Assembly: GCF_021729845.1 (NCBI RefSeq)
Contig: NZ_CP063397.1
Coordinates: 3,999,938 to 4,063,937, forward strand
Source of the DNA: Rhizobium sp. SL42
GTDB taxonomy: Bacteria; Pseudomonadota; Alphaproteobacteria; Rhizobiales; Rhizobiaceae
DNA length: 64,000 bases
Reading direction: 5' to 3'
The notes under the pieces are model-generated. The model saw only the letters and a program-made list of their open reading frames with translations. It did no database searches and had not been told where the DNA came from. Position numbers and translations under genes: made by a program. The stretch's first letter is position 1, and each line of letters starts with the position of its first letter. This document shows positions 30,336 through 51,967 of the stretch, piece after piece.

Positions 30336-31108
30336 GCAACTTAGCCGACACTGTAAAAAGAGTAGTAAATTCAGGCCGCGACAAATTGCGAATTTGGACC
30401 AATGCGACCTGTGATGGATTTTACAGTTAATGGTTTTACGTCAGCAATTCGTCATTCGATCAAGCAAAATGTGCAGGCTCCCGGCAAGAGGTGCTGGCCA
30501 TTGGCGGCCGGCGAAGGCCGCGATTGCGCCCGCCACAAGCCAAGCGTCCGATCACATAAAATCACGTTGCTGCAATTTCGCCTGATAGCGACGATATGAC
30601 ACTGCAAATCAGTCGCGAGCAATTCGCGATCCAACCGGAAGTTCGTGCGATGAGGGTTTCGCGCGCGATTTTTTGATGCCGTGAAGGGAATTGACGAGCC
30701 ATGACTTGGCATTCGTCAACAGAACCTTCGGGCACGAAATGCTGGAGAAATGTCACCTGTCATTCCTTATAGGCCATGTGCTTTTTCGAAACAAAAAGCC
30801 CGTTTCACCTCTAAAGAGAGCAACCTGTGGCAGTCCAGCCGAACATAGTGATCCCCGTCACCTTTGGCGATACTTGCCTAATTTATTGATAGAAAAAGGA
30901 ATTTCCCGTATCAGCACAATGACGAGCAACTTAGTTATGTTGCACAACAACATAATGGGCGTAATTCTTGCCGCGTCGCAGCATCTTGACACTCCCTGCG
31001 TTCTCTCCGAACATGTTTTGGCCAAAGCTTGTCATTTGCGAACACGTTCGCCCGAGCGCATCGGTCAGTTTGGAGAATTTGTGGCAAAGTCGATCGATTG
31101 GAGCTGCA
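30336..31108. other. Divergent intergenic region, about 770 bp, upstream of the LuxR regulator
   Basis: No convincing gene is seen. An open frame at 30691-31122 has no recognisable features, poor initiation and would overlap the regulator start. The region is AT-richer than its neighbours and contains an 8-bp inverted repeat (30935-30955). It should hold promoters for both flanking genes. Confidence 0.4.
30935..30955. promoter_or_regulatory. Inverted repeat upstream of the LuxR-type regulator
   Basis: TTATGTTG-CACAA-CAACATAA is a perfect inverted repeat with 8-bp arms and a 5-bp spacer, 21 bp in total. It sits about 150 bp before the regulator start. The size and symmetry fit a dimeric transcription factor site; autoregulation by the LuxR-type protein is one possibility. 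Confidence 0.4.
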
Positions 31109-32004: not shown

Positions 32005-33324
32005 ATGGCTAGGATCAGCGTATTTGGAATCGGCTACGTCGGCGTGGTGGCAGCGGCCTGCCTGGCCAAAGATGGACATGAGGTTGTTGCCGTGGATATC
32101 GACCCCGCCAAGGTCGACACGATCAACAACGGACGCGCACCGATCGTTGAAAAGGGACTTGATCCCCTGATCGAGCAGACCGTCGCCACTGGCAAGCTGC
32201 GCGCCACGCTCGATATACACGAGGCAATTTCTTCGACCGATGTATCCTTTGTCTGCGTCGGCACGCCGAGCGCAGCGGACGGCTCGGTTGGACTGACCTA
32301 TGTGGTCAAGGCCTGCGAGGCGATCGGCGCAGCAATCGCCGCCAAGGGCCGTTTCCACTCCGTTGTCATTCGCTCGACCATCGTGCCGGGCAGCATGGAG
32401 CAGGTCTGCATCCCGGCGCTCGAGCGCAGCACGAGCCTGATCGCCGGCAAGGATTTCGGCGTCGGATACTACCCGGAATTCCTGCGTGAAAGCACAGCGA
32501 TCGAAGACTACTACGATCCGGGCCTGATCGTTTTTGGTGCTCTCGACGAGCAGACCGACAAGGTCCTGCACGAATTGAATGAGGCGCTTCCGTGCCCGTG
32601 CCACTCGGTTTCTCTCGCCACCGCAGAGATGATCAAATACACCAGCAACTCCTGGCGCGCCGTGAAAGTCACCTTCGCCAACGAAATCGGCAACATCGCC
32701 AAGGCGAGCGGCGTAGACGGCCAGTTGGTGATGAAGATCCTGTGCTCGGATCTCAAGGTCAACATTTCCCCCTATTTCATGCGTCCCGGTTTCGCCTTTG
32801 GCGGCTCCTGCCTGCCGAAGGATGTCCGCGCTCTGCGTCATCTCGCCAAGGAGAAGCATGTCGAGACCGCCCTTCTCGACGCGGTCCTCGAAGCCAACGA
32901 AGCGCAGATCGACCGCGCCGAGACCATGGTTTCGCAGATGGGCGGACAGACAATCGGCATGGTCGGCATCAGCTTCAAGACCGGAACCGACGATCTGCGC
33001 GAAAGCCCGCTCGCAAGCCTTGCCTCTCGCCTGATCGACCGGGGTTACGACCTCAAGATCTACGACCCCTTCGTCAACCAGGCCTATGCGGAAGGCATGA
33101 GCGGCGCCGGTCGCGGCAATGACACAGCCATCGACCTGAAGAACAGGCTCGTCAGCGACCTCGATGACCTCGTGGACAGCTCAGATGTGATCCTTGTCGG
33201 CAATCACTATGCCGAGGCAATGCCGGTGCTTGATGCATCGAGTGACAAGATCCCCATGGTCGACCTGCTTCGCATCCGGCCGGGCATTCGCTCAGCCGGA
33301 ACCTACCAGGGCATTTGCTGGTAA
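32005..33324 (+). CDS. algD: GDP-mannose 6-dehydrogenase AlgD
   Basis: A 439-residue UDP/GDP-sugar dehydrogenase. It oxidises GDP-mannose to GDP-mannuronate with two NAD+, the committed step for mannuronan synthesis. The Rossmann N-terminus is ISVFGIGYVGVVAAACLAKD. The catalytic cysteine is C269 in FAFGGSCLPKDVRAL. The C-terminus ends in GICW, as in Pseudomonas AlgD, and the length matches that family. It is the first gene of a twelve-gene, plus-strand, tightly spaced operon with a palindrome-rich leader. Confidence 0.95.
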   Translation: MARISVFGIGYVGVVAAACLAKDGHEVVAVDIDPAKVDTINNGRAPIVEKGLDPLIEQTVATGKLRATLDIHEAISSTDVSFVCVGTPSAADGSVGLTYVVKACEAIGAAIAAKGRFHSVVIRSTIVPGSMEQVCIPALERSTSLIAGKDFGVGYYPEFLRESTAIEDYYDPGLIVFGALDEQTDKVLHELNEALPCPCHSVSLATAEMIKYTSNSWRAVKVTFANEIGNIAKASGVDGQLVMKILCSDLKVNISPYFMRPGFAFGGSCLPKDVRALRHLAKEKHVETALLDAVLEANEAQIDRAETMVSQMGGQTIGMVGISFKTGTDDLRESPLASLASRLIDRGYDLKIYDPFVNQAYAEGMSGAGRGNDTAIDLKNRLVSDLDDLVDSSDVILVGNHYAEAMPVLDASSDKIPMVDLLRIRPGIRSAGTYQGICW

Positions 33325-33337
33325 GGAGCGCACCGAT

Positions 33338-34816
33338 ATGTTGGCCCACGTCATCTATCTCCTCATCATGACGATCCTGGCGCTCAGCGTGCCGCATCCG
33401 GCGGTCCAGACCGTCTCCGGCACCCTGATCACCGTCGGCCTGATTGGCGCCTGGCGCTATGCCTGGGCAGGGATCAATCTGGCGCGGGCCGCCTATTACC
33501 TGAACTTCGCCTATCCTCGCCGGCGCAAAAACGCCGTCGAGGCCTATCAGGCCCGCGGCTTGAAGGATCACACCTTCTTCCTGGTCACCACCTATAAGAT
33601 CGCTCCGGATATCTCGACCCGGGTCTATCGTTCGATCTTCGAGGCGGCCTATCACGCCAAGGGTGGCGCCACCATCGTCGCCTCGATCGTCGACGAAGCC
33701 GACGCACGGCTGATCCGACAGGTCATGGCCTCTGTTGCTTCCCGCAATCCGGGCTCGGAAGCGATGGTCGCCCTGAAGATCGACAAGATCGCCGGCACCG
33801 GCAAGCGCGATGCACTCGCCACATCACTCCGCTCTATCGCCAAGCTCAATCCGGGTCGCAACGATATCGTCATATTCGTCGATGGTGACAGCTGCGTACC
33901 GGTCGACGTCATCGACCGCAGCCTGCCCTTCTTTACCGACCCTTCCGTCGGCGCCGTCACCACAGATGAGTACAGTGACACCAAAGGCGGGCGCCTGTTC
34001 CGCGACTGGTTCGATCTGCGCTTTTGCCAGCGCCACGTGATGATGTCTTCGATGTCGCTTGGCGAACGCGTGCTGACCCTGACCGGCCGCATGTCGATCT
34101 TCCGTGCCAATCTCGCCACCGACAGCGGTTTCGTCGATCTCGTCCGCAACGACTTCATCGATCACTGGCGCCTCGGCCGGGTTCACTTCCTCACCGGCGA
34201 CGACAAGTCCACCTGGTACTGGCTGCTGCAGCGCGGATACAAGATGCTCTACCTGCCAGATCTCTGCACGGTTTCGATCGAAACCCAGCCCAATTCCGGC
34301 TTCATGGACTCCGCAACGGTCCTGATGACCCGCTGGTTCGGCAACATGCTGCGGACCAACGCCCGCGCACTTGCCCTGCCCGCCTCACAGATCGGTTACT
34401 TTACCTGGTGGTCGATCCTCGACCAGGCGATCTCGATCTGGACAACGCTTGCCGGGCCCGCCAGCATTCTGCTCGCCACATTCTTCGTTAGCCCCTGGAT
34501 CCTGCCGCTGTATTTCGCCTGGGTCATGTTCACCCGCTACTGCATGTGCACGATCATCATGGCGTTCCGCAAACGCAGTTTCCCGGTCACCTTTCCATTC
34601 CTTCTCTACTTCAGCCAGGTTGGCGGCGCGGTGATCAAGAGCTTCATCCTCTTCCGTCTCGACCGCCAGCGCTGGACACGCCAGTCCGCGGCGAAAACGG
34701 GGAGCTACAGCCTGCCTCTCGGCCAGCGGCTGAAGGCCCACAGTTCAACCTACATGCATGGCCTTGCCCTCGGATGGCTCATCCTCGGTGTGGCTTATGT
34801 CGGCAACCTCATCTAA
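33338..34816 (+). CDS. alg8: Mannuronan synthase glycosyltransferase Alg8
   Basis: A 492-residue inner-membrane family-2 glycosyltransferase (Pseudomonas Alg8 has about 494). N-terminal TM helices come first, then the cytoplasmic GT-A domain with VIFVDGDSCV (DxD-type), LTLTGRMSIFR and RWFGNMLRTN (the Q/RxxRW-like acceptor motif). C-terminal TM helices follow. It polymerises GDP-mannuronate and translocates the chain together with Alg44. I chose ATG 33338, with AAGGAG ten bases before, rather than the longer frame that overlaps algD. Confidence 0.94.
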   Translation: MLAHVIYLLIMTILALSVPHPAVQTVSGTLITVGLIGAWRYAWAGINLARAAYYLNFAYPRRRKNAVEAYQARGLKDHTFFLVTTYKIAPDISTRVYRSIFEAAYHAKGGATIVASIVDEADARLIRQVMASVASRNPGSEAMVALKIDKIAGTGKRDALATSLRSIAKLNPGRNDIVIFVDGDSCVPVDVIDRSLPFFTDPSVGAVTTDEYSDTKGGRLFRDWFDLRFCQRHVMMSSMSLGERVLTLTGRMSIFRANLATDSGFVDLVRNDFIDHWRLGRVHFLTGDDKSTWYWLLQRGYKMLYLPDLCTVSIETQPNSGFMDSATVLMTRWFGNMLRTNARALALPASQIGYFTWWSILDQAISIWTTLAGPASILLATFFVSPWILPLYFAWVMFTRYCMCTIIMAFRKRSFPVTFPFLLYFSQVGGAVIKSFILFRLDRQRWTRQSAAKTGSYSLPLGQRLKAHSSTYMHGLALGWLILGVAYVGNLI

Positions 34817-34849
34817 CCGCGCCCACCCCAACAGCGAAGGACCGTGACA

Positions 34850-35971
34850 ATGGACATCGAGAAAAAGCCCGCACGAGACACAGCATCACAGGCTTTGGCC
34901 ACCCAGGCCGCAAACGTCCCGGTCCTCCTGGACAACGGTACAGAGCACCCGAAAACCAACATCCCGTTTTCCGCAATCATCGATGGTCGACAGTTCAGCG
35001 GCCAGAGCCTGTCCCTTGTGTCTGCAACTGTTGCCGGTCTCTCCGGACCGGAACTGGAAGGCAAGCAGCGGATCGCTGTTTTGCGCTTCGATTTCGACGG
35101 TTACACGATCGCCCTGCAGGTCGATGTTCGCATTAGCCGCATCCAGTCCGAAACCGGGGAACTGCGTCTCGACTTCATCGAGCCGACCGGCGAACACCTG
35201 CCGACCCTGCGTTATCTGCTCAACAGCCATATCGCCGGTGATATCACCTCAGTCGACGGCATCATCAGCCGCCGCGAAAAGGCTGGCGTGAGCAACGCCA
35301 AAAACCAGGGTGGATCGACGACCTTCGGCAGTTACGTCGGACGCGGCCTGCGGGTCGCTGCAACCGCAGCGCTCAGCCTGGCGCTGGCCGCCATCGCGGC
35401 AAACCTCGTCTATCAGCGGGTATTCTCCAAGGAAGTTGCCCAACTCGCTACGCTTTCGGCCGGCGGCCAGCCGCTGCGCGCGGTGGCAAGCGGCCAGATA
35501 TCCTATCTCAACCTCAGCGCGGGCAAGGGTGAGGTTCTCTACACCCTGCAGGCCGTCTCGGGCGATACGCTGAGCGTCAACATGCCCTGCGACTGCAAGA
35601 TCCTGCCAGGCGCCGCGATGGAAGGTTCGACTGTCATGGCCGGCGATACCGTCGCCGAAGTCGTCACCGGCGAGACGGCACCGGTCGTCATTGCGACCGT
35701 CAGTGCAGATCAGGCAAAACTTCTGGTGCGCGGCGACATTGCCGAGCTTAAATTTCCCGATGGCGTGGTTGCCTACGGCAAACTCACCACCGGCGCACAA
35801 GCGCTGACACCGGTCGGTTCGCAAGGTGAGATGCGCGCCGTCATCACCCCGGATGCCGCCCTCGGTGGGGAAGCCGTGGGTTCGCCCGTCTCCGTGCGCA
35901 TCATCAGCAACCGTATCTTCGCCATTGCCCAGCAACTCGGCCTGATGTCCTCCAACAGCACGGCCGGCTGA
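34850..35971 (+). CDS. alg44: Alg44-like synthase co-protein; PilZ domain apparently lacks c-di-GMP ligands
   Basis: A 373-residue Alg44 homologue: cytoplasmic PilZ-like domain (about 35-115), one TM segment (about 163-187, AATAALSLALAAIAANLVYQ) and a periplasmic HlyD-like domain with the Alg44-typical CDCKILPGAAMEG. In Pseudomonas Alg44, an RxxxR motif and a DxSxxG motif bind c-di-GMP. The equivalent positions here read TEHPK before NIP and SLSLVSATVAG, so the arginines and the Asp/Ser pair are absent. A KKPAR string sits near the N-terminus but about 25 residues too early. ATG 34850 has AAGG upstream; GTG 34844 is an alternative start. It probably regulates Alg8 by another signal. Confidence 0.88.
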   Translation: MDIEKKPARDTASQALATQAANVPVLLDNGTEHPKTNIPFSAIIDGRQFSGQSLSLVSATVAGLSGPELEGKQRIAVLRFDFDGYTIALQVDVRISRIQSETGELRLDFIEPTGEHLPTLRYLLNSHIAGDITSVDGIISRREKAGVSNAKNQGGSTTFGSYVGRGLRVAATAALSLALAAIAANLVYQRVFSKEVAQLATLSAGGQPLRAVASGQISYLNLSAGKGEVLYTLQAVSGDTLSVNMPCDCKILPGAAMEGSTVMAGDTVAEVVTGETAPVVIATVSADQAKLLVRGDIAELKFPDGVVAYGKLTTGAQALTPVGSQGEMRAVITPDAALGGEAVGSPVSVRIISNRIFAIAQQLGLMSSNSTAG

Positions 35972-36030
35972 GAACCGCAGCGAGGCAGACAATCCCGCGC
36001 AATCGAAAAACAGGATTCACAGGAGCAGTC

Positions 36031-37446
36031 ATGCAAAACGTCCATCCCCTCATCCTGTGCGGCGGCATCGGCACACGCCTTTGGCCCCTTTCCCGCACCG
36101 AGCACCCGAAACAGTTTCAGCGTATCGACGGCAACTCGGAGACCACCTTTTTTCATGCAACGGTTGAACGCCATCGCATGCCGGGTTTTGCAGACCCTAT
36201 CGTCGCCGTCAGCAGTTCGCATGTCGCAACCGTTCTGCGCCAGTTGAACGACCTGAATTGCCCGGCCCGCATTATCGCCGAGCCGATCTCCCGCAATACC
36301 GGTCCCGCGGTTCTTGCCACGGCACTCGATCTCGCCGAAACCGATCCCGCGGCGCTCATCTGCGTCATCCCGTCGGACCACATCGTCAAGGGCGATCTGA
36401 CAGGCAATGTCCTGGCCGCCCGTGCAGCAGCCGAAAGCGGACATATTGTTCTCTTCGGCGTTCCTCCGGAATATCCGGAAACAGGCTATGGCTATATCGT
36501 TGACGGCGGGGCGCTGGACACGCTCGACTGCGCCCGCAAGGTTGCAAGCTTCATTGAAAAACCCCCGGTGGAAATTGCAACTTCCCTGATCAAGGCCGGC
36601 AATGCGTATTGGGCTTCGGGCATCAGCCTGTTTCGCGCCGATGTGCTGATTTCCGAATTCCAGCGGCTGGATCCCACAACGTATGAGGCGGTCAGAAACG
36701 CCACCAAACTCGGCCTGCAGACGGAACATGCGCTTTATCTGAATGCCGAAGCATTGTTCGCCGCTGCCAATCTCCCCACGGAATCCATCGTTTTTGAGCA
36801 TTCGCCCCGCACCGTGATCGCGCCGCTGCACGTGGCGTGGAGCGATGTCGGCGCCTGGAACGCCCTGCATCACATTGCCGAAAAGGACGACGACGGCAAC
36901 GTTTTGAGCGGTGACGTCATCAGCCTCGACACCCGCAACTCATACATCCGCTCGACAAACAAGCTCGTGGCCGTGATCGGCATGCAGGACGTGGTTGTCG
37001 TCGATACCGACGACGCCCTGCTGATCACCACCCGCGACCAGGCGCAACAGGTGAAGCAGATCGTGAAAAAGCTCGAAATCATCAAACGCCGTGAACTGGC
37101 CGAACATGCCCGCAACCAGATGGCCTGGGGCGAAATCCGCCGCGTGCAGAGCGGTCCCGGATATGAACTGCGCATGATGACATTGCGCGCCGGAGGCATG
37201 CTGCCGATGCTGGAGGACCTGAACTGCCACCGGATGCTGACGGTTACGAATGGCTCTGGCCTGCTCAAGAACGGGGTCATAACGCGGCCGCTTCATGTCG
37301 GCGATACGTTCGAAGTTCCGCCGGGCGAAGCCACCGTCATTTATTGCGGACCCGAAGCCGAAATGCAGCTCGTCGAGGTCGTCTGCGAAGTGGTTGCGGC
37401 AAACCTGGAACCCCAGGCCGGCAGCCGCCAGCTCGTGAACAGCTGA
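36031..37446 (+). CDS. algA: AlgA-like mannose-1-phosphate guanylyltransferase with degenerate isomerase half
   Basis: A 471-residue protein of the bifunctional type II PMI-GMP family. The N-terminal guanylyltransferase domain is intact (LILCGGIGTRLWPLSRTEHP, then EKPP and WSDVGAWNAL) and should make GDP-mannose. The C-terminal cupin, normally the phosphomannose isomerase with QMHxHRxEHW and a later His, reads LEDLNCHRMLTV (residues 394-405) and EVPPGEATVIYCG. The metal-binding histidines and glutamate are largely missing. It may be monofunctional, with mannose-6-phosphate supplied elsewhere. It is separated from alg44 by 59 bp. Confidence 0.9.
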   Translation: MQNVHPLILCGGIGTRLWPLSRTEHPKQFQRIDGNSETTFFHATVERHRMPGFADPIVAVSSSHVATVLRQLNDLNCPARIIAEPISRNTGPAVLATALDLAETDPAALICVIPSDHIVKGDLTGNVLAARAAAESGHIVLFGVPPEYPETGYGYIVDGGALDTLDCARKVASFIEKPPVEIATSLIKAGNAYWASGISLFRADVLISEFQRLDPTTYEAVRNATKLGLQTEHALYLNAEALFAAANLPTESIVFEHSPRTVIAPLHVAWSDVGAWNALHHIAEKDDDGNVLSGDVISLDTRNSYIRSTNKLVAVIGMQDVVVVDTDDALLITTRDQAQQVKQIVKKLEIIKRRELAEHARNQMAWGEIRRVQSGPGYELRMMTLRAGGMLPMLEDLNCHRMLTVTNGSGLLKNGVITRPLHVGDTFEVPPGEATVIYCGPEAEMQLVEVVCEVVAANLEPQAGSRQLVNS

Positions 37447-37456
37447 GGACGGCTCC

Positions 37457-38962
37457 ATGCGAAGAAGCGCCTCACTTCTGTTTGCCGGACTGCTCGCCTC
37501 GACGGCATTCGGTGTGAATGCCGAAAATCTCGATCATGCGGCTCTTGCCAGGTTGACCGGGCAGATCAATCAGGTCACCGACCACGCAGCCTCGGGCGAC
37601 ACGTCCGTTGAGAGCCTTTTACCGCTCCTCACCGAACGACTTCACGGTATTGCACCTTCGGTCCTAGTCGACGCACCTGCCTTCGTGACGATCGAGGGAA
37701 AGGGCGGCTTGCATACGATCCCGGTGGACTTCATGCTGGCACAACTGCGTCTGCAGACCGGTGCACGGTTCAGTGCAGACATCGGCAGAGCATTGACCGA
37801 TGCCAACGCGCCAGCCTTGTTCATTCGCGGTGGCACCATCACGCTGAAGGAGCTCGCAGCAACAGCGGCGACCCAATTTCCCGGTGCGATCGAACAGAAC
37901 GGCGAAACATGGACAGCCAATTGGCCAATCGTCATCTGGTCGGACTCTGGCCTGGTCATCGAAGACAGCGACCGACTTGAACTGTCGACGCGTGCTGGCG
38001 CCTTCGTCCTGAACGCTGGCCTACTCCAGGTGAATAACGGTTCAATATCCGGCTCGCCCGAGAGCAATGACGGCCTGCCTGAATTCAAACCATTCATCGT
38101 CACCGCAATGAGTGGTGCCTTGCAGGCCAAAAAGGCAAAGTTCGGCAATCTTGGCTTTCCCGGCTCCGGTTCGACCAGCGGCATCTCGATCATCGGCGCG
38201 GCACTTCTGCCTGCCAAGATGCGTTCATTTTTCGTTGAAAGTGCCTTCGACAGGGTTAGCAGTGTCGACCTGCTTGATACCCACAATGTGCTGATCGCCC
38301 GAAACCAGTTTCGCGATGCAGACGGGCCAGCGATCGCCGTTAAGGGCGTCAACAGTGCACGCATCCTGTCCAACATCGTGACAGGGTCGCGGCAGGCTCA
38401 GGGCATCAATATCCAGAACCGCAGCTCGGATATCGAGATCGCGCACAACCTCGTGCTCGGCAATCGCGGCAGCGGCATTTTCCTGGCCAATGGTGTTCGT
38501 GACATCAAGGTGTCGGCCAATCTGCTCTCGGGCAATGGCCGTGGCGGGATTTCGGTCGTGCGCGGCACCTGCGTCAGGCTGATCGACAATATCGTTGTCG
38601 CCAATCGGCAGGTCGGCATCAAAATCCGCGCCAGCGATCAACTGGCGCTGTCGCAAAACCAGCTGATCAACAATTCTGGACCCGGCATCTCGGTTATCGA
38701 ACAGGGCCCCAAAGCCGCGCTCACCATCGACGGCAACCAGTTTATTGCCAACAGATCCGGCCTGCACGGCGGCTCGGCAAGCCAAGTGGCTTTGAGCGGC
38801 AATGATTTTGCCGGGCAGTCACCCATCCTGCTCGACGGCGAGTTCGCCAGCTACGTGCCGCAACTTCTGCGCATCTCAACCGCAGACGCTACGGCCCAAC
38901 CCTTCATCATCCACGCCAATGAACAGTCGTCCGCGCGGACGGACTGCCAGTCAGGGAGTTAA
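37457..38962 (+). CDS. algG: AlgG-like periplasmic beta-helix protein lacking the DPHD epimerase motif
   Basis: A 501-residue secreted protein: signal peptide MRRSASLLFAGLLASTAFG, then a right-handed parallel beta-helix with PbH1-type repeats (for example ILSNIVTGS, IEIAHNLVLGNRGSGIFL, IRASDQLALSQNQLINNSG). This is the AlgG (mannuronan C5-epimerase) architecture. In Pseudomonas AlgG, catalysis needs DPHD. The best-aligned place here reads DLLDTHN (D271-N277), so the catalytic His position is changed. It may be inactive as an epimerase but still protect or guide the polymer through the periplasm. The homology is remote. Confidence 0.72.
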   Translation: MRRSASLLFAGLLASTAFGVNAENLDHAALARLTGQINQVTDHAASGDTSVESLLPLLTERLHGIAPSVLVDAPAFVTIEGKGGLHTIPVDFMLAQLRLQTGARFSADIGRALTDANAPALFIRGGTITLKELAATAATQFPGAIEQNGETWTANWPIVIWSDSGLVIEDSDRLELSTRAGAFVLNAGLLQVNNGSISGSPESNDGLPEFKPFIVTAMSGALQAKKAKFGNLGFPGSGSTSGISIIGAALLPAKMRSFFVESAFDRVSSVDLLDTHNVLIARNQFRDADGPAIAVKGVNSARILSNIVTGSRQAQGINIQNRSSDIEIAHNLVLGNRGSGIFLANGVRDIKVSANLLSGNGRGGISVVRGTCVRLIDNIVVANRQVGIKIRASDQLALSQNQLINNSGPGISVIEQGPKAALTIDGNQFIANRSGLHGGSASQVALSGNDFAGQSPILLDGEFASYVPQLLRISTADATAQPFIIHANEQSSARTDCQSGS

Positions 38963-38967
38963 AGTCG

Positions 38968-40416
38968 ATGGTCTTTTCATCCGAGACATTCCTGTTCCTG
39001 TTTCTACCGCTCTTCCTGGTGGCCTACTATCTGACACCCGATCGGCTGCGCTCATGGACGATCCTGATCGGCTCCTACATCTTCTATTGCTGGTGGCGCG
39101 CCGACTTCCTGCTGTTGTTTATCGCCGTAACCGCCTGGGCCTATGGCTGCGGATTGCTGATTGCCAGGTGGGAAGGAGAAGCGAGAGCCCGGACAACCAT
39201 GGTTGTCGGCATCATCGGATGCCTGATCGTGCTCGGCATCTTCAAGTATCTCAATTTCTTCATGGACAGCTTTGCTGCCCTCATCGGCACGACGCCGGAA
39301 AACCTCGGATATCACTGGCAGCTGATCCTGCCGATCGGCGTTTCCTTCTACGTCTTCCACGCCATCGGCTACATCGTCGACGTCTTCCGCAAGGACACGC
39401 CGGCAACGCGCAGCTTCGTCGATTTTGCTGCCTTCATGGCCCTGTTTCCGCACATGATAGCCGGCCCGGTCCTGCGTTTCCGCGATCTGACCGACCAGTT
39501 CATCCAGCGCGAACACAGCCTGCCGATCTTCACTTCGGGCCTCTATATCTTCACCATCGGCCTGTCGAAGAAGGTCCTGATCGCCGACACCGTGGCCCCG
39601 ATCGCCGACCAGACATTTGCCATGGCCAATCCGACGATGGTGGAATCCTGGCTCGGCGCCATTGCCTACATGTTGCAGCTCTATTTCGACTTCTCGGGTT
39701 ATTCGGACATGGCGATCGGCCTCGCCCTGATGATGGGCTTCCGCTTCAAGCAGAATTTCAACACGCCATACCTCAGCCTGTCGATCACCGAATTCTGGCA
39801 GCGCTGGCATATCAGCCTGTCCACCTGGCTGCGCGACTACCTCTACATCCCGCTTGGTGGCAATCGCAAAGGCTCGGCCCGCACCTACGTCAACCTGTTC
39901 CTCGTGATGCTGCTCGGCGGCCTGTGGCATGGCGCAGCCTGGACCTATGTGCTCTGGGGTGCATGGCACGGCGCATGGCTTGCCTGCGAACGCTACACCG
40001 GCTGGGCCAAGAACGTACCGAGCCGCGCCATCGCCCTTCCCGTCACCCTGGTTCTCGTGCTGATCGGCTGGGTCATGTTCCGGGCTGCCGATGTTGGAGA
40101 CGCCTTCACCGTCTATGGCGGCATGATCGGCCTCAACGGCATCACCCCGAGCATCGAGTTCCTCGCCAACGTCACCCGCGAAAACCTGCTCTTCCTGGTT
40201 CTCGCCATCTTCGCTGTCTTTGCCGAGCCATATTTCAAGAAGCTGACCGATGCCGAGAACGGGATTCAGGCACATGGCTTCCAGGTTTCTGCGAATGGCA
40301 CGGCCACGGCAATTCCCTCGCTCGCCTACCCGATCGCCATGAGCCTTCTGCTCATCGTGACCGTGGCGCGCCTGTCGGAACAGTCGGTTTCGCCCTTCCT
40401 CTACTTCCAGTTCTGA
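38968..40416 (+). CDS. algI: Alginate O-acetyltransferase membrane component AlgI (MBOAT)
   Basis: A 482-residue polytopic MBOAT protein that moves an acetyl group from the cytoplasm across the inner membrane for polymer acetylation. The conserved active-site histidines lie in EFWQRWHISLSTWLRDY and GGLWHGAAWTYVLWGAWHG, and both segments are intact. The N-terminus VFSSETFLFLFLPLFLVAYY is typical of AlgI/DltB. Length is slightly shorter than Pseudomonas AlgI (about 520). It is flanked by 5-bp and 13-bp gaps within the operon. Confidence 0.95.
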   Translation: MVFSSETFLFLFLPLFLVAYYLTPDRLRSWTILIGSYIFYCWWRADFLLLFIAVTAWAYGCGLLIARWEGEARARTTMVVGIIGCLIVLGIFKYLNFFMDSFAALIGTTPENLGYHWQLILPIGVSFYVFHAIGYIVDVFRKDTPATRSFVDFAAFMALFPHMIAGPVLRFRDLTDQFIQREHSLPIFTSGLYIFTIGLSKKVLIADTVAPIADQTFAMANPTMVESWLGAIAYMLQLYFDFSGYSDMAIGLALMMGFRFKQNFNTPYLSLSITEFWQRWHISLSTWLRDYLYIPLGGNRKGSARTYVNLFLVMLLGGLWHGAAWTYVLWGAWHGAWLACERYTGWAKNVPSRAIALPVTLVLVLIGWVMFRAADVGDAFTVYGGMIGLNGITPSIEFLANVTRENLLFLVLAIFAVFAEPYFKKLTDAENGIQAHGFQVSANGTATAIPSLAYPIAMSLLLIVTVARLSEQSVSPFLYFQF

Positions 40417-40429
40417 CAGGAGATAAGAC

Positions 40430-41578
40430 ATGTCCAGCATTCGCCAGCACACCGCGACATTGCTACTTCCGACCGTCTTCTTCGGTTACGCGATCTACGC
40501 GAACTCAACCATGCTCTTCGCTGCCGCCGGCAGCGAAGCCGAAGCAGCCCAGGTCAACGACCTGTCGCTCTCCTACGTCATCGACGGTGAAGCCACTCGC
40601 GATCTGGACGCGCTGTACAAGAGTGAACTGCCGCACCGCGATGCCGCTGTCGGCGTCATCGGCAACGCCCGCTATGCCCTGCTCGGCTCCGGCCGCAAAG
40701 GTGTGATCGTTGGTGACGACGGCTGGTTTTTCACCGGGGAAGAATTCAAGCGCGTCAAACCGACGGACATCGAGTCTGCGGTCAACCAGATTGGCGAGAT
40801 CCGCAAGAAGCTGGCCGCCGCAGGCATAGAACTTGTCATGGTGCCTCTACCGGCCAAGTCCGACATCTATACCGAGCACCTACCGGACATGATGCGCAAC
40901 GACGCCATGGTGACCGCCTACGGCGACTTCTCGACCGCTCTCAGCCAGGCCGGCATGACGGTTGTCGATACGCGTACCGCCATGCTCGCAGCCAAACCTA
41001 AGGACGAGGTGTTCCTGAAATCCGACACCCACTGGACCCCTGCCGGGGCCAGGGCGACGGCGGAAGCCGTCCAGAATACGTTCCGGCAAAGTGGCATCCT
41101 GCTCGCTTCCGAGCAGGTTACCGCCTCCTGGGAAACCCCGGTCGATGTCTGGGGTGACCTGACCAAATACATCACATCTCCCGACTATGCACCGCGTGTC
41201 GGCCTGACGCCGGAAAGTGTTCCGATCTACAGGGCCTCAGTCACCGAGGCCGAAGGCAGCGAAGACATTTTCGGCAGTGATGCGTCCGTTCCTGTCATGC
41301 TGGTCGGCACCAGCTATAGCGCCAACGAGAACTGGTCCTTCGCCGACTTCCTGCGCCAGACGCTGTCCACCGATGTGGTGAATGTCGCCAAGGAAGGTCT
41401 CGGTCCCGGTGTTCCAATGATGGATCTGCTCGAGGGCCAGGTGCTGACCGATACGCCACCAAGTGTCATCGTCTGGGAATTCCCGGTCCGCTATCTCGGT
41501 ACGGACACCCTGTGGACGCGCAAGACGAATGCCGGCAACGGCGGTCATCACGGCCCGGTTGGAGAAGGCAATGTCTAA
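40430..41578 (+). CDS. algJ: AlgJ-type SGNH-like O-acetyltransferase
   Basis: A 382-residue protein with an N-terminal membrane anchor or uncleaved signal (LLLPTVFFGYAIYANSTMLF) and a periplasmic SGNH-hydrolase-like domain. The catalytic residues expected for AlgJ are present: D199 and H201 in FLKSDTHWTPAGA, and Ser295 in VGTSYSANENWSFAD. It should accept acetyl groups delivered by AlgI. It ends in an 8-bp overlap (ATGTCTAA) with the following gene. AlgJ and AlgX are homologous; the N-terminal anchor and the lack of a C-terminal carbohydrate-binding module favour AlgJ. Confidence 0.9.
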   Translation: MSSIRQHTATLLLPTVFFGYAIYANSTMLFAAAGSEAEAAQVNDLSLSYVIDGEATRDLDALYKSELPHRDAAVGVIGNARYALLGSGRKGVIVGDDGWFFTGEEFKRVKPTDIESAVNQIGEIRKKLAAAGIELVMVPLPAKSDIYTEHLPDMMRNDAMVTAYGDFSTALSQAGMTVVDTRTAMLAAKPKDEVFLKSDTHWTPAGARATAEAVQNTFRQSGILLASEQVTASWETPVDVWGDLTKYITSPDYAPRVGLTPESVPIYRASVTEAEGSEDIFGSDASVPVMLVGTSYSANENWSFADFLRQTLSTDVVNVAKEGLGPGVPMMDLLEGQVLTDTPPSVIVWEFPVRYLGTDTLWTRKTNAGNGGHHGPVGEGNV

Positions 41579-42344
41579 GCGTTTGTATCCGCTGGCCATT
41601 CTCGCTGCCTGTGTCGGCGCGCTTGCCGCCCAGCCGAGTGAGGCCCGCGTCAAGCCGTTCTTCCCCCGTCCGAAGGCGGAAGAGCCCGCGCCACCTCCCA
41701 GGCCTGCACCAACGGGTCCTGCTGCAAAATTGCCCCTGGAATTGCAGGCGGTCCGCAAGGATCTGCTCGCCGGCAAGCGCATCAGCTACCGGCAACTGCA
41801 GGCCCTCGCCGATGCGGGTGACGGCATCGGGGCGTTCCGGCTTGCGGAGAGGATCGTCAAGGACGGTGATCCCAAATTCACGACCGATGCTCTGCACTAT
41901 TTCACCATCGCCGCCTTCGAGGGCCGAGGCTATGCGGTTCGCCACATCCTCGATCTGCTGGAAAAGCCAGATGTGCAATTGCGCCCCGCCCATCTGAAAA
42001 GCGCCGAAGCCGTCCTGCGCGCACAGGCCAAAAAAGGCAACGCCAAGGCTGTGGACGGGCTCGTCCGCTTCTACAGCCAAGGCCATCCCTTCGGCGAAAG
42101 GCGCGACGAACTTCAGGCGCTGCTCTCGTCCGGGGCAGGTGAAAAGAACGGCGAAACCGCGTTCAAGCTCGCCGTCGTTCTGCTTTCCAATAGGGAACGC
42201 ACGCCCGAACAAGTTGAACAGGCAGGCCGCTACCTCGCCATAGCCCAGAACAGCGGCAGCATCGGCATCAAGGCCGCTGCCAGCAACATACTGGCAAAAC
42301 TGAATAATCCACCATCGGAAGAACATGCGGAGGTACAACCATGA
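41571..42344 (+). CDS. Small periplasmic Sel1/TPR-like repeat protein of the alginate-like operon
   Basis: A 257-residue predicted periplasmic protein: signal peptide MSKRLYPLAILAACVGALAA, a Pro-rich linker (PRPKAEEPAPPPRPAPTGP), then helical Sel1-like repeats (YRQLQALADAGDGIGAFRLA, ALHYFTIAAFEGRGYAV, LRAQAKKGNAKAVDGLVRFY). It has no counterpart in the Pseudomonas operon at this place. Its fold recalls the AlgK scaffold but it is shorter and lacks a lipobox. ATG 41571 overlaps the algJ stop, and its own stop overlaps the AlgX start. A scaffold role in an acetylation or export complex is a guess. Confidence 0.75.
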   Translation: MSKRLYPLAILAACVGALAAQPSEARVKPFFPRPKAEEPAPPPRPAPTGPAAKLPLELQAVRKDLLAGKRISYRQLQALADAGDGIGAFRLAERIVKDGDPKFTTDALHYFTIAAFEGRGYAVRHILDLLEKPDVQLRPAHLKSAEAVLRAQAKKGNAKAVDGLVRFYSQGHPFGERRDELQALLSSGAGEKNGETAFKLAVVLLSNRERTPEQVEQAGRYLAIAQNSGSIGIKAAASNILAKLNNPPSEEHAEVQP

Positions 42345-43705
42345 CCACCCGACAACATTGCGGCTATCTCGCCGGCGTGCTCGCCACACTCACTTTGTCC
42401 AGTGCCTCCGTGGCTTGGGCAGAGACCGGCGAAGAGCCATCATCCGCCTACGGTTGCCGCAATCTGGAGGAAATTTCGGATCTGCAGATGATCGAAGGCA
42501 AGGACGGCATGTTCTTCCGTATTCTGGCGGATCTTCGTCTTCAACACGCCTTCACTGACCAGACCGCCGACAACTTGGCTGCCATGGCAAAGGCGCTCGA
42601 GCAGAAGGGCACGACACTGATTTACGTGCCCCTGCCGACGAAATCGCAGGTCCTGCCCGAACTCGTGCCGGCCAAGGCTTCGCTCTACGGCTTCGATGCC
42701 GATATAGCCATGCAGATCTACAGCGATGTCATTCGCCGGCTGGGCGACAGAGCTGTAGCGGCGGTCGATATCGCATCACCCATGCGCAAGGACAATATCA
42801 ACGGCTTCGGCGAACACTCGTTCTTCCAGTCGGACTTCCACTGGACGGCCCATGGCGCAAGCGTAGCGGCGAAAGCGATCGCCGAACGCATGAAGCAATT
42901 GCCTGCCTATGGCGATGTGACACCGGTGCAATTCGCCATGGAAGAGGTCAAGCCGGATCCCGAATATTCGAGCATGCGCGAGCTTCTGCAGAAGCACTGC
43001 ATCTCGAACGTCCCGACGGTGACCGCGCACGCCTACCGCGCGGTACGTAAAGAAGAAGCCGCCACCGATGGCGCCTCCATGGACATTTTCGGCAGCGGGG
43101 ACGAAGCCACGATAGCGCTGATCGGCACCAGTTACTCCGACAAGCCGATCAGCAATTTCTCCGGCTATCTTGAACACTGGACCCAGATCCCGGTGGACAA
43201 TTATTCGATCTCGGGCGGCAACCAGTTCGGCTCGATCCTGTCCTACATCACGTCGCGTGAATTCCAGGAACAGCGGCCGCGCTTCCTGATCTGGGAAAAC
43301 CCGATCTACAACAATCTCGGCCAATTCGGCGCGGCCCCGTGGAATGAGATCATTGCCGCGTCCCTTGGCGAATGCAGCCCGCCCCTGACGATCGCATCGG
43401 TCGACGGCAAGACCGTCGAAGCCGATCTTGCCCAGGTCAAGCTGAGTGAAAACGAGGTTCTGCTGGCCGACATCGGCTCAGACACCAGCCGCAATGTCAC
43501 CTTCAAGTTCACCGGTGCGGACGGCCAGACACGCACCCGCGCCATGGACCGCGGCGATCGCCTGCGCTCAACCGGTCGCTATTACTTCTCGCTGGGCGGA
43601 TTTCCTGCCGGATCGTTCAGCAAGGTCGCCGTCTCGTTCGATGCTCCTGTCGGCGAAGACACCTCCCTCTCTGTCTGCAAGACGAAACTCGGAGAAGAGT
43701 CATGA
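42341..43705 (+). CDS. algX: AlgX-like O-acetyltransferase with C-terminal carbohydrate-binding region
   Basis: A 454-residue secreted protein. After the signal peptide (ending in SSASVAWA), an SGNH-like domain holds D165 and H167 in FFQSDFHWTAHGA and Ser264 in LIGTSYSDKPISNF, all AlgX catalytic residues. The C-terminal 110 residues form a beta-rich domain consistent with the AlgX carbohydrate-binding module. AlgX performs the final acetyl transfer to the polymer and belongs to the periplasmic complex. It has 4-bp overlaps with both neighbours. Length is close to Pseudomonas AlgX (474). Confidence 0.9.
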   Translation: MTTRQHCGYLAGVLATLTLSSASVAWAETGEEPSSAYGCRNLEEISDLQMIEGKDGMFFRILADLRLQHAFTDQTADNLAAMAKALEQKGTTLIYVPLPTKSQVLPELVPAKASLYGFDADIAMQIYSDVIRRLGDRAVAAVDIASPMRKDNINGFGEHSFFQSDFHWTAHGASVAAKAIAERMKQLPAYGDVTPVQFAMEEVKPDPEYSSMRELLQKHCISNVPTVTAHAYRAVRKEEAATDGASMDIFGSGDEATIALIGTSYSDKPISNFSGYLEHWTQIPVDNYSISGGNQFGSILSYITSREFQEQRPRFLIWENPIYNNLGQFGAAPWNEIIAASLGECSPPLTIASVDGKTVEADLAQVKLSENEVLLADIGSDTSRNVTFKFTGADGQTRTRAMDRGDRLRSTGRYYFSLGGFPAGSFSKVAVSFDAPVGEDTSLSVCKTKLGEES

Positions 43706-44337
43706 TGACGAAAACCCGCTTCAATCTCACTTTGGTATCAATGGCAACGACGCTTGCTTTCGCTCTGCCATCCCTGGCCGACGACGGTGGTCTGTATGAA
43801 AAGCCGATCGATCCGAACTCGGCCTTTGTCAGGGTGATCGCACCCGGTTCATCAATTGCCTCGGTCAAGAACAGCTCATTCAGCCAGTTGAACGACGGCG
43901 TCTCGCCTTATGTGGCGGTGGCACCCGGCGACATCGCGGTGTCATCCAGCTTCCGCCAGGCAAGTGTCGAGGCGGCAGCCGGTAAGTTCTACTCAGCCGT
44001 CATTACCCAGGACGGTGTCGTCACGGTCGAAGACGACATGACGAAGAATCCATCCAAGGCAACACTGACCCTCTACAACCTGACGGAAAAGGCAGCGCTC
44101 GATCTCTTCGTTCCCAAGGCCGGATCGGATGCCGTGTCGGATGTCGACAGCGGTGCATCGAAGTCGGTTGCCCTGCGAGCACCGCTGAAAGTCGACCTCG
44201 TGGTCCGTGATGGCGAAAAGGAAATCGCCAAGATCGACGCGGTCGAATTCAAGCGGCTTGCCGGTGTGACAATCGTGGTCACCGGCACCGGCGACGACGT
44301 CACTGCAGTCGCCGTCCCCAGCACCATTGCGCGTTAA
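43702..44337 (+). CDS. algF: Alginate O-acetylation protein AlgF
   Basis: A 211-residue periplasmic protein with a signal peptide (TLVSMATTLAFALPSLA) and the AlgF-typical mature start DDGGLYEKPIDPNSAFVRVI. The rest is beta-rich. AlgF is required for O-acetylation with AlgI, AlgJ and AlgX, probably as an adaptor. The start overlaps the algX stop, and two adjacent ATG codons are available. Its presence completes an apparently functional acetylation module. Confidence 0.9.
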   Translation: MMTKTRFNLTLVSMATTLAFALPSLADDGGLYEKPIDPNSAFVRVIAPGSSIASVKNSSFSQLNDGVSPYVAVAPGDIAVSSSFRQASVEAAAGKFYSAVITQDGVVTVEDDMTKNPSKATLTLYNLTEKAALDLFVPKAGSDAVSDVDSGASKSVALRAPLKVDLVVRDGEKEIAKIDAVEFKRLAGVTIVVTGTGDDVTAVAVPSTIAR

Positions 44338-44364
44338 TTCCTGAAATAGGTCCGGAGGTTTATC

Positions 44365-47112
44365 ATGACGATTGGAAAACTGGTTAAATCGCTGCTCATG
44401 GCAGGTGTGATGACGGTTGCCACCGGAACTCCGGGAAGAAGCGAGCCCATCGATGTCCGGTTCTTGCCGCCGGACATCGACCTCCCCAAATCGGCAGTCT
44501 GCACGCCCCGCATCCGCGATGAAGACATGATCGCCGACTGGACGGCATGGGACCGCAAGGCCCTGCCCAAGCGTGAAACCTATTCCATCACACGCGACAT
44601 GAACCGTTTGCGCGATATCGACGCCCGACGTTTCGAGCCGATCCTCACCCGCATGCAACAACTTTTGCCAACCATCAAGCGAGACTATAGCGACAAGGAC
44701 GCGCTGTTCGACAAGGTCAAGCTGATGCTGGCAATGGGCGAAGGTGAAACGGTTCGGGAACAAGGTCTCGTCGGCAAGCTTCTGGAAAACAAGGACCACC
44801 CCGCCGGATCTCTGAATACGCTTGCCGATTACCTTATCGACGGCAAGGGTATAGAAACCGACCGGACCCGGGGCCTAGAACTCAAGGTCCAGGCTGCCTA
44901 TGGTGGCAACGCGGACGCCATCCTCGACCTCGCCCGCATGACCAAAAACGGCGAACAGATTTCCAAATGGGATATCGAACCGGAACTGGCCGTCAACATG
45001 GCCTTCGGTTCGCTGGTTGGTGTTCTCGATGAAGGTATTTGCGACCGTATCGGCCGCGTCGCGCGTGAATACGACGGTGGCGAGATCGTCAAGAATGACC
45101 CGAATGTCAGCCTTGTCTGGTACAAGTTCGCCGCCGATCTTGGCGATACATCCGCGGCCTGGGAAGTCGCCGAATACAATCTGCTGAGCGAAAAGATCAT
45201 CAAGGATAATGATGTTCTGGTGAAATATCTGACGATGGCGGCAGACGGTGGCAACATGGCCGCGATCCTGGAGCTCGGCCGGCTCTACGCCGATGGTGCA
45301 ATCGTCGAGCGTGATCGGGAAAAAGCGCTTCACTATTACGGCATCGCGGAAAGATCCGGAAATCAGGCCGGACTGGTGAAGCAAGCCCAACTTTACGAGC
45401 AGACCAAGGATACCTCCACGGCAGACGCGGCAGCCTACGAGACCACGCTCCGCCAGCTCATCGAACGAGCAGACCCTCCGCCCTGGGCCTTCACGCGTCT
45501 TGCACGTCTGGTCCAGAACAGGGAGGGCGTCTGGCAATCGGCGGAAAAGACCAAACCTTTGCTGGAAGAAGCGGTTAAGCGCGGTGACATCGAAGGCGGC
45601 ATCGATCTCGCCGAACTTCTCGTGCGCGAAAGTCCGAGTGCAGCCACTCTCGCCCGCTCGACCGATCTTCTCAGCCAGGCAATCCAGAGCAATGGCGAAA
45701 TCAATGCCATTGCCAAGTTGCAGCGCATCTATCTCTGCATCGATCCGAATGGCCCCGACCTGGAGGCTGCGGCCTATTGGTCGGATATTGAAGCAGGCGC
45801 GGGCAACAAGACCCTCAATCTCAAGGCCGATCAGATTGACCAGCTCCCGCAACTCAAGGATCCGCTTGTGATTGCAGCGATCCAGACCCAGGCACTCTAC
45901 GGCCGTGCCAGCGCCTTGGCCCTGTATCAACGCTATCTGAAAAGCGCCGGTTACGCAGAACAGGTGCTGAAATTCTGGGAGCAGCGCGCCGAGGTTCGGC
46001 GCGGCGCGACCGTTGAAGCCGTCCTGCTGGATTTCAAGCAGAACGTCGAGAAAGGTCGGATGACCGAAGCCAAGCAGAGTATCCGGCTGACCAGTGAAGC
46101 GATGAGCGTCGATGCCGGGCTGAGCTTTGCACGCTTCCTTATCGAAAACTACGCCAGCGACCGCGACAGTGTGCAACTTGCCAAGGAAATCCTGAAGCCA
46201 CTGGCTGAAGGCGGCTACGGTCGCGCCATCCGGCTCTTGGAAGAACTGGAGGGCGAAGGCCTCGATCCGCTTTCCTCGCCTGTCAGCTACTATGGCGATG
46301 TGATGAAGCAGAAGGGCGACATGGCCGCCCAGTTGCTGCTTGCCGAGAATGCCGAGGACGATGCAACGCGTGAGCTCTTCTATCAGCGCGCCATCGGCTC
46401 GCAACGCTGCGACTACGATGACTCGATGTCACTCGCCGAGTTCGCCATGCGGCACAACCGAGAAGATGCCAAGCGCTGGTTGGCGATCGCGACCCATATC
46501 GCGACCGATGATGCCTGGCGCAAGGTCAAGATCGCCGACATGTATATGGAACTCAACACGCCGGACACCAACAAGACGGCGCTTGATCTGTACGCCGAGG
46601 CTCGCAGCGGTGGCGAACCGGCGGCCTTCTACCGTCTGGTGAAATACTATGCCAACAATGCCGGTGACGCTTATGATCCGAAGGCGGCGAGCGACATCTT
46701 CGTTGACCTCGTTCAGCGCTCGGATCTCAACAGCATGCCCGAAAAACTCCTCATGCTGGCCAACATGAAGCCTGAAATCAGGCGTCAAGTAAGCCTGAGG
46801 ATCAATGTCAGGGATCTCTATCAACGTTCTGCCGACACCGGCCAGCCAGTGGCCATGCGGGAACTGGGCAAGCTGCTGCGCAACGACCCGAAGCAAAGCC
46901 TGGCCATCGTCGATGCTTTTGCATGGCTGAAGAAGGCGGCTGAAGCTGGTGATGCTGAAGCCATGTATCTGCTTTCGCAGTCTTATGCCTACGGCACGGG
47001 AACAAAGCCCGCGCTTGATGCCGCCCAATACTGGATGGCGAAGTCGGCCGCGGCTGGCTATCCCGAAGCCACCCATGTCTTGATGTTGACCAAAGCTGGA
47101 ACGGAGGGCTGA
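44365..47112 (+). CDS. Oversized AlgK-like periplasmic Sel1/TPR scaffold protein
   Basis: A 915-residue protein with a signal peptide (KSLLMAGVMTVATGTPGRS) and helical Sel1/TPR repeats throughout (for example AAILELGRLYADGAIVERDR and AMYLLSQSYAYGTGTK). Pseudomonas AlgK is an outer-membrane lipoprotein about half this size that holds AlgE and AlgX together. The order before algL and the repeat type suggest an AlgK role, but no lipobox cysteine is present. It follows a GGAGG ribosome site. The extra length may compensate for the absent porin or bridge more partners. The assignment is by architecture and context only. Confidence 0.75.
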   Translation: MTIGKLVKSLLMAGVMTVATGTPGRSEPIDVRFLPPDIDLPKSAVCTPRIRDEDMIADWTAWDRKALPKRETYSITRDMNRLRDIDARRFEPILTRMQQLLPTIKRDYSDKDALFDKVKLMLAMGEGETVREQGLVGKLLENKDHPAGSLNTLADYLIDGKGIETDRTRGLELKVQAAYGGNADAILDLARMTKNGEQISKWDIEPELAVNMAFGSLVGVLDEGICDRIGRVAREYDGGEIVKNDPNVSLVWYKFAADLGDTSAAWEVAEYNLLSEKIIKDNDVLVKYLTMAADGGNMAAILELGRLYADGAIVERDREKALHYYGIAERSGNQAGLVKQAQLYEQTKDTSTADAAAYETTLRQLIERADPPPWAFTRLARLVQNREGVWQSAEKTKPLLEEAVKRGDIEGGIDLAELLVRESPSAATLARSTDLLSQAIQSNGEINAIAKLQRIYLCIDPNGPDLEAAAYWSDIEAGAGNKTLNLKADQIDQLPQLKDPLVIAAIQTQALYGRASALALYQRYLKSAGYAEQVLKFWEQRAEVRRGATVEAVLLDFKQNVEKGRMTEAKQSIRLTSEAMSVDAGLSFARFLIENYASDRDSVQLAKEILKPLAEGGYGRAIRLLEELEGEGLDPLSSPVSYYGDVMKQKGDMAAQLLLAENAEDDATRELFYQRAIGSQRCDYDDSMSLAEFAMRHNREDAKRWLAIATHIATDDAWRKVKIADMYMELNTPDTNKTALDLYAEARSGGEPAAFYRLVKYYANNAGDAYDPKAASDIFVDLVQRSDLNSMPEKLLMLANMKPEIRRQVSLRINVRDLYQRSADTGQPVAMRELGKLLRNDPKQSLAIVDAFAWLKKAAEAGDAEAMYLLSQSYAYGTGTKPALDAAQYWMAKSAAAGYPEATHVLMLTKAGTEG

Positions 47113-47116
47113 GCCT

Positions 47117-48205
47117 TTGACCGATTTGACCACTTCACGGATATGCGGCGCTGCCGCGGTATCACTGCTCGCATTGACGGCGCTGAGTGGCACAGCATCC
47201 ATCGCGGAAGCTGCGGAAGAGACCTGCTTCGCAATCCCCGCCCCGGTGATCAGCCTCGGCTTTGGCAGCCGCTATGAAGCGGCCTCCAAAACTCGATCCG
47301 ATCTGGACGATGATTCCGACGCTGCCGTGACCAAGGCCTTGAAGCCTATCGATCTGTTTATCCAGAACCTGGCCAAGCAGGTGACCAAGGCCGGCAAGGA
47401 AACCGACGCAGCCACCCGTGCGGAGTACCAGCGCTGCGTCATCAATGCCGTATACCAATGGGCCTCGGCCAATGCACTTAGCGACATGAAGACGGACAAT
47501 GCCAAACTCTCCGTTCCTTCGCGTGTCGGCGGCATCGCCATCGCCTATGCAGAAAGCCGTAACCAGGTGAGCGGTGTGGCCGACAGACAGCGCGTCATCG
47601 AGAAATGGCTGCTGGAACGGGCTCGCGCAACGGTCGACTTCTTCGACAATGATGCAACGAAGGGGGCGGCCCGCAACAACCTGCGCGCCTGGGCGAGCCT
47701 CGCGGTTGGAGAGGTCGGCATCCTCAATGAAGACAAACCGCTGACCGACTGGGCCATTCTCAGCAACCGGACGATGATTGCCGATGCCTCTCCTGATGGC
47801 AGCCTGCCTCTTGAGATGAACCGGCAGCAATATGCTCTGCACTACCAGTTGCATGCGATGTCGCCGCTGGTCACATCAATCGCACGGCTTTGCTCTGCGG
47901 GCTATGGAAAGGGCGGGGCAGACCTGACGAAGCTGGCCACAATGGCGCGCTTCTCGATCAACGCCGTCAAGGATCCAACAATTGTTCAGAAAATCACCGG
48001 CGTCAAACAGACGGTCGAGCCTGGTTTGAAGGACAACACGTCGTCGCTCGGGTGGCTCGAACCCTATGTCGCGTTGAGCAATGACAAGAAGATGGAAACC
48101 GAGTTCGCCGACCTCCGGCCGCTGTCGAACTCCAAGCTCGGCGGCAATGTCACGGCGTTGTATGGAAACAAGCGAACGAGCTGCGTCATAACAGCCATTC
48201 GCTGA
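47117..48205 (+). CDS. algL: AlgL-like protein with both catalytic residues of the lyase replaced
   Basis: A 362-residue secreted protein of the PL5 alginate lyase family. The alignment with Pseudomonas AlgL is clear in the C-terminal half: EMNRQQYALHYQLHAMSPL for ELKRQQRALAYHNYALPPL, then LGWLEPY and SKLGGNVTALYGN. The catalytic NNHSYW is NNLRAW here (L189 for His), and the catalytic Tyr of NYAL is His (LHAM, H246). It is therefore probably not a lyase and may be kept as a periplasmic polymer-binding or complex component. The start is a TTG with GGAGGG eight bases upstream. It is the last gene of the operon. Confidence 0.82.
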   Translation: MTDLTTSRICGAAAVSLLALTALSGTASIAEAAEETCFAIPAPVISLGFGSRYEAASKTRSDLDDDSDAAVTKALKPIDLFIQNLAKQVTKAGKETDAATRAEYQRCVINAVYQWASANALSDMKTDNAKLSVPSRVGGIAIAYAESRNQVSGVADRQRVIEKWLLERARATVDFFDNDATKGAARNNLRAWASLAVGEVGILNEDKPLTDWAILSNRTMIADASPDGSLPLEMNRQQYALHYQLHAMSPLVTSIARLCSAGYGKGGADLTKLATMARFSINAVKDPTIVQKITGVKQTVEPGLKDNTSSLGWLEPYVALSNDKKMETEFADLRPLSNSKLGGNVTALYGNKRTSCVITAIR

Positions 48206-50757: not shown

Positions 50758-50759
50758 GA

Positions 50760-51956: not shown

Positions 51957-51967
51957 GAATAACCCCT

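Follow-up and report, generated by a model that had tools for sequence, protein, structure and literature searches.

What does an alginate operon make when its AlgG-like protein lacks the known residues of an epimerase? The question is raised by a 64,000-nucleotide stretch of Rhizobium sp. SL42 (contig NZ_CP063397.1, positions 3,999,938 to 4,063,937 of the forward strand; hereafter the window), which carries a twelve-gene operon of alginate type in a genome of 5.17 Mb (three contigs, 99.74% complete). According to the available text of a 2015 review, every alginate producer encodes AlgG and its polymer has some guluronate; a natural mannuronan-producing organism was then not yet identified (PMC4444821). 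We propose, with a probability of roughly 0.6, that operons of this clade would make O-acetylated poly-β-D-mannuronate with little or no guluronate, by means of a modified alginate machine. An acetylated, non-epimerised, mannuronan-like product, as an earlier reading of the window had it (the original prediction), thus remains the best prediction on sequence grounds. This prediction, like those made below for regulation, export and lyase activity, is built on gene content, residues, clade membership and the lack of an AlgE-family match.

Gene content and active sites

Twelve unbroken plus-strand frames, several of which abut or overlap, run from the AlgD start codon (ATG) at 32005 to the AlgL stop codon at 48205, as originally described. 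Their order is AlgD, Alg8, Alg44, AlgA, AlgG, AlgI, AlgJ, OrfH, AlgX, AlgF, AlgK, and AlgL. An AlgX alignment, run against named bacterial genomes, identified 45 further loci. The same operon order was found across genera: all twelve genes, invariably arranged as in the window, are present in 41 of the 45, and the other four (L025, L027, L034, and L043) begin at a contig end within the operon and show the same arrangement over the part that is present.

The relationship to Pseudomonas alginate biosynthesis is clear: eleven of the twelve Pseudomonas genes have homologues here, and catalytic residues are retained in the synthase, the dehydrogenase and the acetylation set. The Pseudomonas operon has the order algD-alg8-44-K-E-G-X-L-I-J-F-A, which was observed in one comparison locus (L108). 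The window operon differs in several respects: its order; the absence of algE; an extra gene, orfH; a longer AlgK; an AlgG without the DPHD motif; an Alg44 without RxxxR; an AlgA without the isomerase; and a changed AlgL active site.

The AlgG-like protein (37457..38962) is a β-helix without the known catalytic residues. Its AlphaFold model (pLDDT 88) has the AlgG-type fold: in a Foldseek comparison with the PDB, the top matches were the AlgG structures 4nk6 (E 1.9e-16, 426 columns, TMt 0.76) and 4ozy (TMt 0.79). The sequence scores only 63.2 bits against the curated AlgG model NF038177, below the cut-off of 700. In the text available, the same review assigns DPHD a catalytic role in AlgG (PMC4444821). 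The motif occurs in 117 of 120 listed relatives of a canonical alphaproteobacterial AlgG (that of locus L073); it was found in none of 44 loci and none of 40 database relatives of the AlgG-like protein. Moreover, the window protein has Asn in the R345 column.

Catalytic residues at shifted positions, an alternative explanation for the missing motif, were sought by alignment and not found. This candidate was rejected because a profile-profile alignment (probability 100) places AVKG opposite DPHD, and because no acid, base or aromatic column is kept: across 48 AlgG-like sequences no column of D, E, H, K, R, Y, or W reaches 90% conservation, although two reach 80% (W161 and D450). The 120 canonical relatives have 27 such columns at 90% or above, including the Asp, His, and Asp of DPHD. 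The polar positions conserved at 95% in the AlgG-like set are Asn, Gln, and Cys only, as a β-helix ladder would predict. Stray residues do occur (His in the H319 column of L048, within SIHD, where near relatives have Lys; Arg in the R345 column of L064 and L067), and we judge these to be chance. Loss of the epimerase site, as originally predicted, is therefore a strong case from the alignments. The AlgG-like β-helix would then hold or guide the chain without epimerising it, and names such as "poly(beta-D-mannuronate) C5 epimerase" on some relatives are probably wrong as to function.

Two side observations concern other AlgG proteins. Locus L111 (genome G775, from another class of the same phylum) has an AlgE-positive operon that is canonical but for an AlgG-like frame with DAAD instead of DPHD, a possible independent second natural loss of epimerisation. 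In some Rhizobiaceae genomes (L116-L122), AlgG modules with DPHD lie within frames of 1.2-1.3 thousand amino acids (kaa), and in L101 a DPHD module stands next to AlgD, Alg8, and a PilZ-positive Alg44. Such modules perhaps mark a second alginate-type locus.

The genes for precursor synthesis and polymerisation are largely conserved. The best solved match of the AlgD-like GDP-mannose 6-dehydrogenase (32005..33324) is 1mfz, with 438 bits versus 252 for the next best, a UDP-glucose dehydrogenase; its catalytic Cys is kept, in FGGSCLPKD. The Alg8-like family 2 polymannuronate synthase (33338..34816; Pfam Glyco_tranf_2_3) was assigned also from its residues and its place in a tree; in a 41-row alignment its Asp and Arg-Trp positions are conserved to 95% or more. 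Both the GDP-mannose dehydrogenase and the Alg8-type synthase of the canonical alginate operon are thus present, with the catalytic motifs that had been claimed for them.

The AlgA-like protein (36031..37446) combines an intact guanylyltransferase half (NTP_transferase, 2.8e-38), which aligns to solved enzymes, with a degenerate isomerase cupin: PF01050 gave no match, and RPWG and HxHxxE are absent from the window protein and from 42 of 42 full-length relatives. The isomerase motifs are lost, as predicted; the step itself is covered elsewhere. A full GMP-PMI paralogue with RPWG and HHHRAE is encoded on the same contig (C1:3719062), about 317 kb from the AlgA-like gene, so the loss has little metabolic meaning. 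A type I isomerase (PF20511) was also sought in this genome, without a match at 0.001. AlgA-like and AlgD-like proteins would thus provide GDP-mannuronate.

The Alg44-like protein (34844..35971) consists of a PilZ fold without the arginines that bind cyclic di-GMP (c-di-GMP), one long helix, and an HlyD-like part. Neither a Pfam PilZ match nor a PDB sequence match was found; the assignment comes from the structure model, whose PilZ fold matches the Alg44 PilZ structures 4xrn and 4rt0 with probability 1.0 (highest TMt 0.83, for 4xrn). Of the two arginines of RxxxR, the first is present in none of 42 sequences and the second in two; canonical proteins have both (7/7 for each). The second PilZ motif aligns poorly, and the conclusion rests on the RxxxR arginines. 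An R...R pair in five Rhodobacteral sequences was considered as a c-di-GMP site and rejected, since it lies off the aligned site. Here too the original prediction stands: there is a strong case, at the residue level, for loss of the c-di-GMP arginines. Alg8 with Alg44 would polymerise GDP-mannuronate free of direct c-di-GMP control.

The acetylation set comprises four genes: AlgI-like MBOAT O-acetyltransferase (38968..40416; MBOAT, 5.2e-32), AlgJ-like SGNH acetyltransferase (40430..41578; 4o8v, 5e-46), AlgX-like acetyltransferase (42341..43705; 4knc, 1.9e-34), and AlgF-like acetylation protein (43702..44337; Pfam AlgF, 8.7e-14). All four are present in the 41 complete loci, with catalytic positions conserved: AlgI H321 (at least 95% over 45 rows); AlgJ D199, H201, and S295; and AlgX D165, H167, and S264. 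The window keeps these residues, including the Asp-x-His...Ser motifs of AlgX and AlgJ, as had been claimed. Together, the four proteins would acetylate the chain in the periplasm.

The AlgL-like lyase

The AlgL-like PL5 lyase (47117..48205; Alginate_lyase, 1.8e-21) scores 77.3 bits against PF05426, well above the cut-off of 22.2. Its active site is altered. In all 45 sequences (the window and 44 loci; the L034 contig stops before the gene), residues N201, W205, R249, and Y256 (P. aeruginosa numbering) are kept, K66 is replaced by Arg, and Y259 by His. H202 is replaced by Leu in 41 of the 45, including the window; L060, L061, L063, and L064 keep His. Database homologues repeat the pattern: K66R, N201, Leu202, W205, R249, and Y256 in 118 of 118, and His259 in 117. 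(These are 120 listed of 197 homologues, ranked by likeness to the window, less two short ones; they overlap the set of loci.)

Does this protein still cleave? The original prediction counted the lyase among the lost activities, in effect as a dead enzyme retained as a scaffold. H202 is Leu in most members, and the available text of a study of P. aeruginosa AlgL reports no detectable in vitro activity for H202A (PMC8829089). That text also reports, however, that H202A cells, unlike those with R249A/E or Y256F, resembled the wild type; its authors suggest low residual activity for H202A (PMC8829089). The invariance of R249 and Y256, together with the near-fixed His259, fits a constrained active site. 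On these grounds a dead lyase is unlikely, although the best placed of the alternatives considered here, and the claimed loss of activity was not confirmed despite H202L, K66R, and Y259H. It is more likely that the AlgL-like protein is an altered, retuned lyase, still active and clearing or trimming the chain. We infer that the His may have been relocated from position 202 to 259.

Possible epimerisation in trans and the route out of the cell

Could the product be ordinary alginate after all, with guluronate made by an epimerase elsewhere or by unrecognised residues of the AlgG-like protein? The AlgG fold is retained, and a DPHD module does occur elsewhere in some carriers. The window's own genome has no second AlgG-type epimerase at 1e-6 (with canonical AlgG as query, only the operon copy matched; no search aimed at calcium-dependent AlgE-type epimerases with their own model was made), and in the AlgG-like family no acidic, basic or aromatic position is conserved at 90%. 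We consider this explanation improbable, somewhat more so than a dead lyase.

Several points nonetheless weigh against a pure acetylated mannuronan. In six of 48 carriers (50 genomes searched with canonical AlgG, minus two controls), a DPHD epimerase module lies apart from the operon, within a frame of 1.2-1.3 kaa; those six could epimerise in trans, which limits the polymer prediction for them. Rhizobium rosettiformans (L028) is among the carriers that gave no second DPHD module at 1e-6. The AlgG-like set is more divergent than the canonical one (mean identity 0.33 versus 0.40), which lowers its conservation generally. Moreover, one clade member (L100, genome G901) has no match to AlgI, AlgJ, or AlgF within its operon, which goes from AlgG to OrfH to AlgX. 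Acetylation is therefore not universal in the clade, and the L100 product is perhaps unacetylated or differently acetylated. Finally, an exit pore was looked for and not found, although an unrelated porin would escape a search for the AlgE family.

The operon contains no AlgE gene, and PF13372 had no match in the window's own genome, in 43 of 45 carriers among the named genomes, or in any of a set of 11 carriers (one of them, G484, known by its AlgX alone). The two matches among the 45 are frames of 613 and 616 residues elsewhere in their genomes, with half the model covered. An alphaproteobacterial AlgE query matched none of 16 carriers, while both positive controls (G175 and G276) were found. 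The searches make a strong case for loss of the AlgE-family porin, which the original prediction had noted as missing. A hidden barrel gene was considered as well: apart from a single gap in each of L043 and L058, neighbouring operon genes stand no more than 250 bases apart. The L043 gap, of 1334 bases between OrfH and AlgX, contains an extra AlgK-like (Sel1-type) frame.

Two proteins bear on export; the original prediction mentioned neither the size of the AlgK-like protein nor OrfH. The AlgK-like Sel1-repeat protein (44365..47112; Sel1, 5.3e-18) is 915 residues long, whereas the frames in three Pseudomonas-order operons have 461-510; it matches NCBIfam AlgK weakly (25.9 bits, cut-off 700), and no barrel family was detected in it. 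A motif search for the lipoprotein signal of AlgK found a lipobox-like motif in one of 44 relatives and none in the window. OrfH (41571..42344), probably periplasmic and encoded between AlgJ and AlgX, is present in all 45 loci; it is Sel1-like by eye only, with no real Pfam match to the longer version of the frame. The window OrfH has a lipobox-like N-terminus, but the motif recurs in two of 45 relatives, and assignment as a lipoprotein was rejected.

Perhaps, then, the polymer stays in the periplasm. The AlgE-family porin is missing from nearly all carriers, and the operon leaves almost no room for a concealed barrel gene. On the other hand, the AlgK-like and AlgX-like proteins are kept, their Pseudomonas counterparts being export-side partners in the text available (PMC9734138), and a porin of another family would go undetected. 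We regard retention as doubtful, to about the same degree as ordinary alginate. For an exported acetylated mannuronan, the long AlgK-like protein and OrfH would conduct the chain towards an exit in the outer membrane that does not belong to the AlgE family. More tentatively, at rather less than even odds, the whole may be a dedicated alphaproteobacterial system for acetylated pure mannuronan: AlgG as chain guide, Alg44 blind to c-di-GMP, the lyase His moved from 202 to 259, and a non-AlgE exit.

Descent, distribution and control

Carriers among the 45 loci include Rhizobium, Allorhizobium, Agrobacterium, Ciceribacter, Devosia, and members of Rhodobacterales (for example Tabrizicola, Yoonia, Marivita, Litoreibacter, and Cognatishimia); the nearest is Rhizobium sp. 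18065 (AlgX-like 97%). This variant of the alginate machinery, as judged by homology, is not confined to the window's genome. Occurrence is patchy. An AlgG-like query had a close full-length match in 8 of 23 congeners, and a ninth (G013) has a distant match with the whole operon present. With an AlgX query, one of 150 other genomes sampled across the family matched at 1e-60, and three of 384 others across the class at 1e-20; all three are loci of other types.

In a 36-row Alg8 tree, the 20 operons of this type that were included form a single clade (100/100): that of the window, those of 18 among the 45 loci, and L100. Its neighbour is L101, from another Rhizobiaceae genome, followed by AlgE-positive operons, although L101, L100, L074, and some others sit on long branches and their exact placement is unsure. 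We read the losses of epimerase site, c-di-GMP site, isomerase, and porin as derived within one clade. The original prediction spoke of independent loss in four proteins, which was not borne out: as far as tested, these four losses are clade-wide, which leaves no way to tell in what order, or whether independently, they arose. The lyase His alone differs between clade members. In the same tree, the window's Rhizobium clade joins Rhodobacterales rather than the Agrobacterium rosae and R. tibeticum operons (87/85, unstarred), a possible sign that the operon has moved between orders.

Alphaproteobacterial loci with canonical sites provide a contrast. L073, L074, and L101 share AlgD, Alg8, and Alg44 with the window, and partly AlgG, AlgL, AlgI, AlgJ, and AlgX. 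Unlike the window, L073 has DPHD, RQFVR with DLSSGG, an isomerase domain, and AlgK fused to AlgE in one 657-residue frame (L073:12965-14935); L074 has the PilZ motifs RQHVR and NISVGG and an AlgE barrel, with no AlgG seen; and L101 retains both the PilZ motif and a DPHD module. The available text of Bundalovic-Torma et al. (2020) describes "atypical" alginate operons with loss of the algKE outer-membrane loci, losses of modification genes, and rearrangement (PMC7112194). Those operons differ in that algK can also go, and a legend there names deep-sea bacteria; the available text does not take up catalytic sites (PMC7112194). No published description of the present operon appeared among the titles and abstract beginnings listed from the open-access literature, supplementary files aside.

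Purifying selection acts on every one of the twelve genes: compared with L023, eleven have dN/dS values of 0.008-0.127, and the AlgG-like gene, the least constrained, has 0.170. Such constraint, together with a gene order common to several genera, supports the original view of a coherent change of function. Decay is very improbable: its signs are the AlgG-like dN/dS, a split Alg8 in L058, and the genes missing from L100, against open frames throughout the window, selection on every gene, and the same twelve genes across genera.

This clade offers candidates for the missing mannuronan producer, some of them named strains rather than metagenome bins. It also offers natural variation that splits the scaffold role of AlgG from catalysis, and a natural comparison for Alg44 without its c-di-GMP arginines. 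Moreover, it sharpens the question of export, by presenting an alginate-type machine without its porin.

How might such a machine be regulated? A LuxR/NarL-type gene (30968..31762, plus strand; conserved part from about 31109; Pfam GerE 2.3e-13, weak Response_reg), also absent from the earlier account, ends 242 bases 5' of the operon. Of 40 testable loci, 36 have a homologue directly 5' by coordinates. It is downstream in L067 and elsewhere in the genome in L046; in L040 and L056 none was found at 1e-15. Control is probably now exerted at transcription, by way of this adjacent LuxR-type protein. On the other side of the operon, minus-strand genes at 48649-53014 encode CheW-like, mannitol dehydrogenase family, mannonate dehydratase, and zinc alcohol dehydrogenase proteins.

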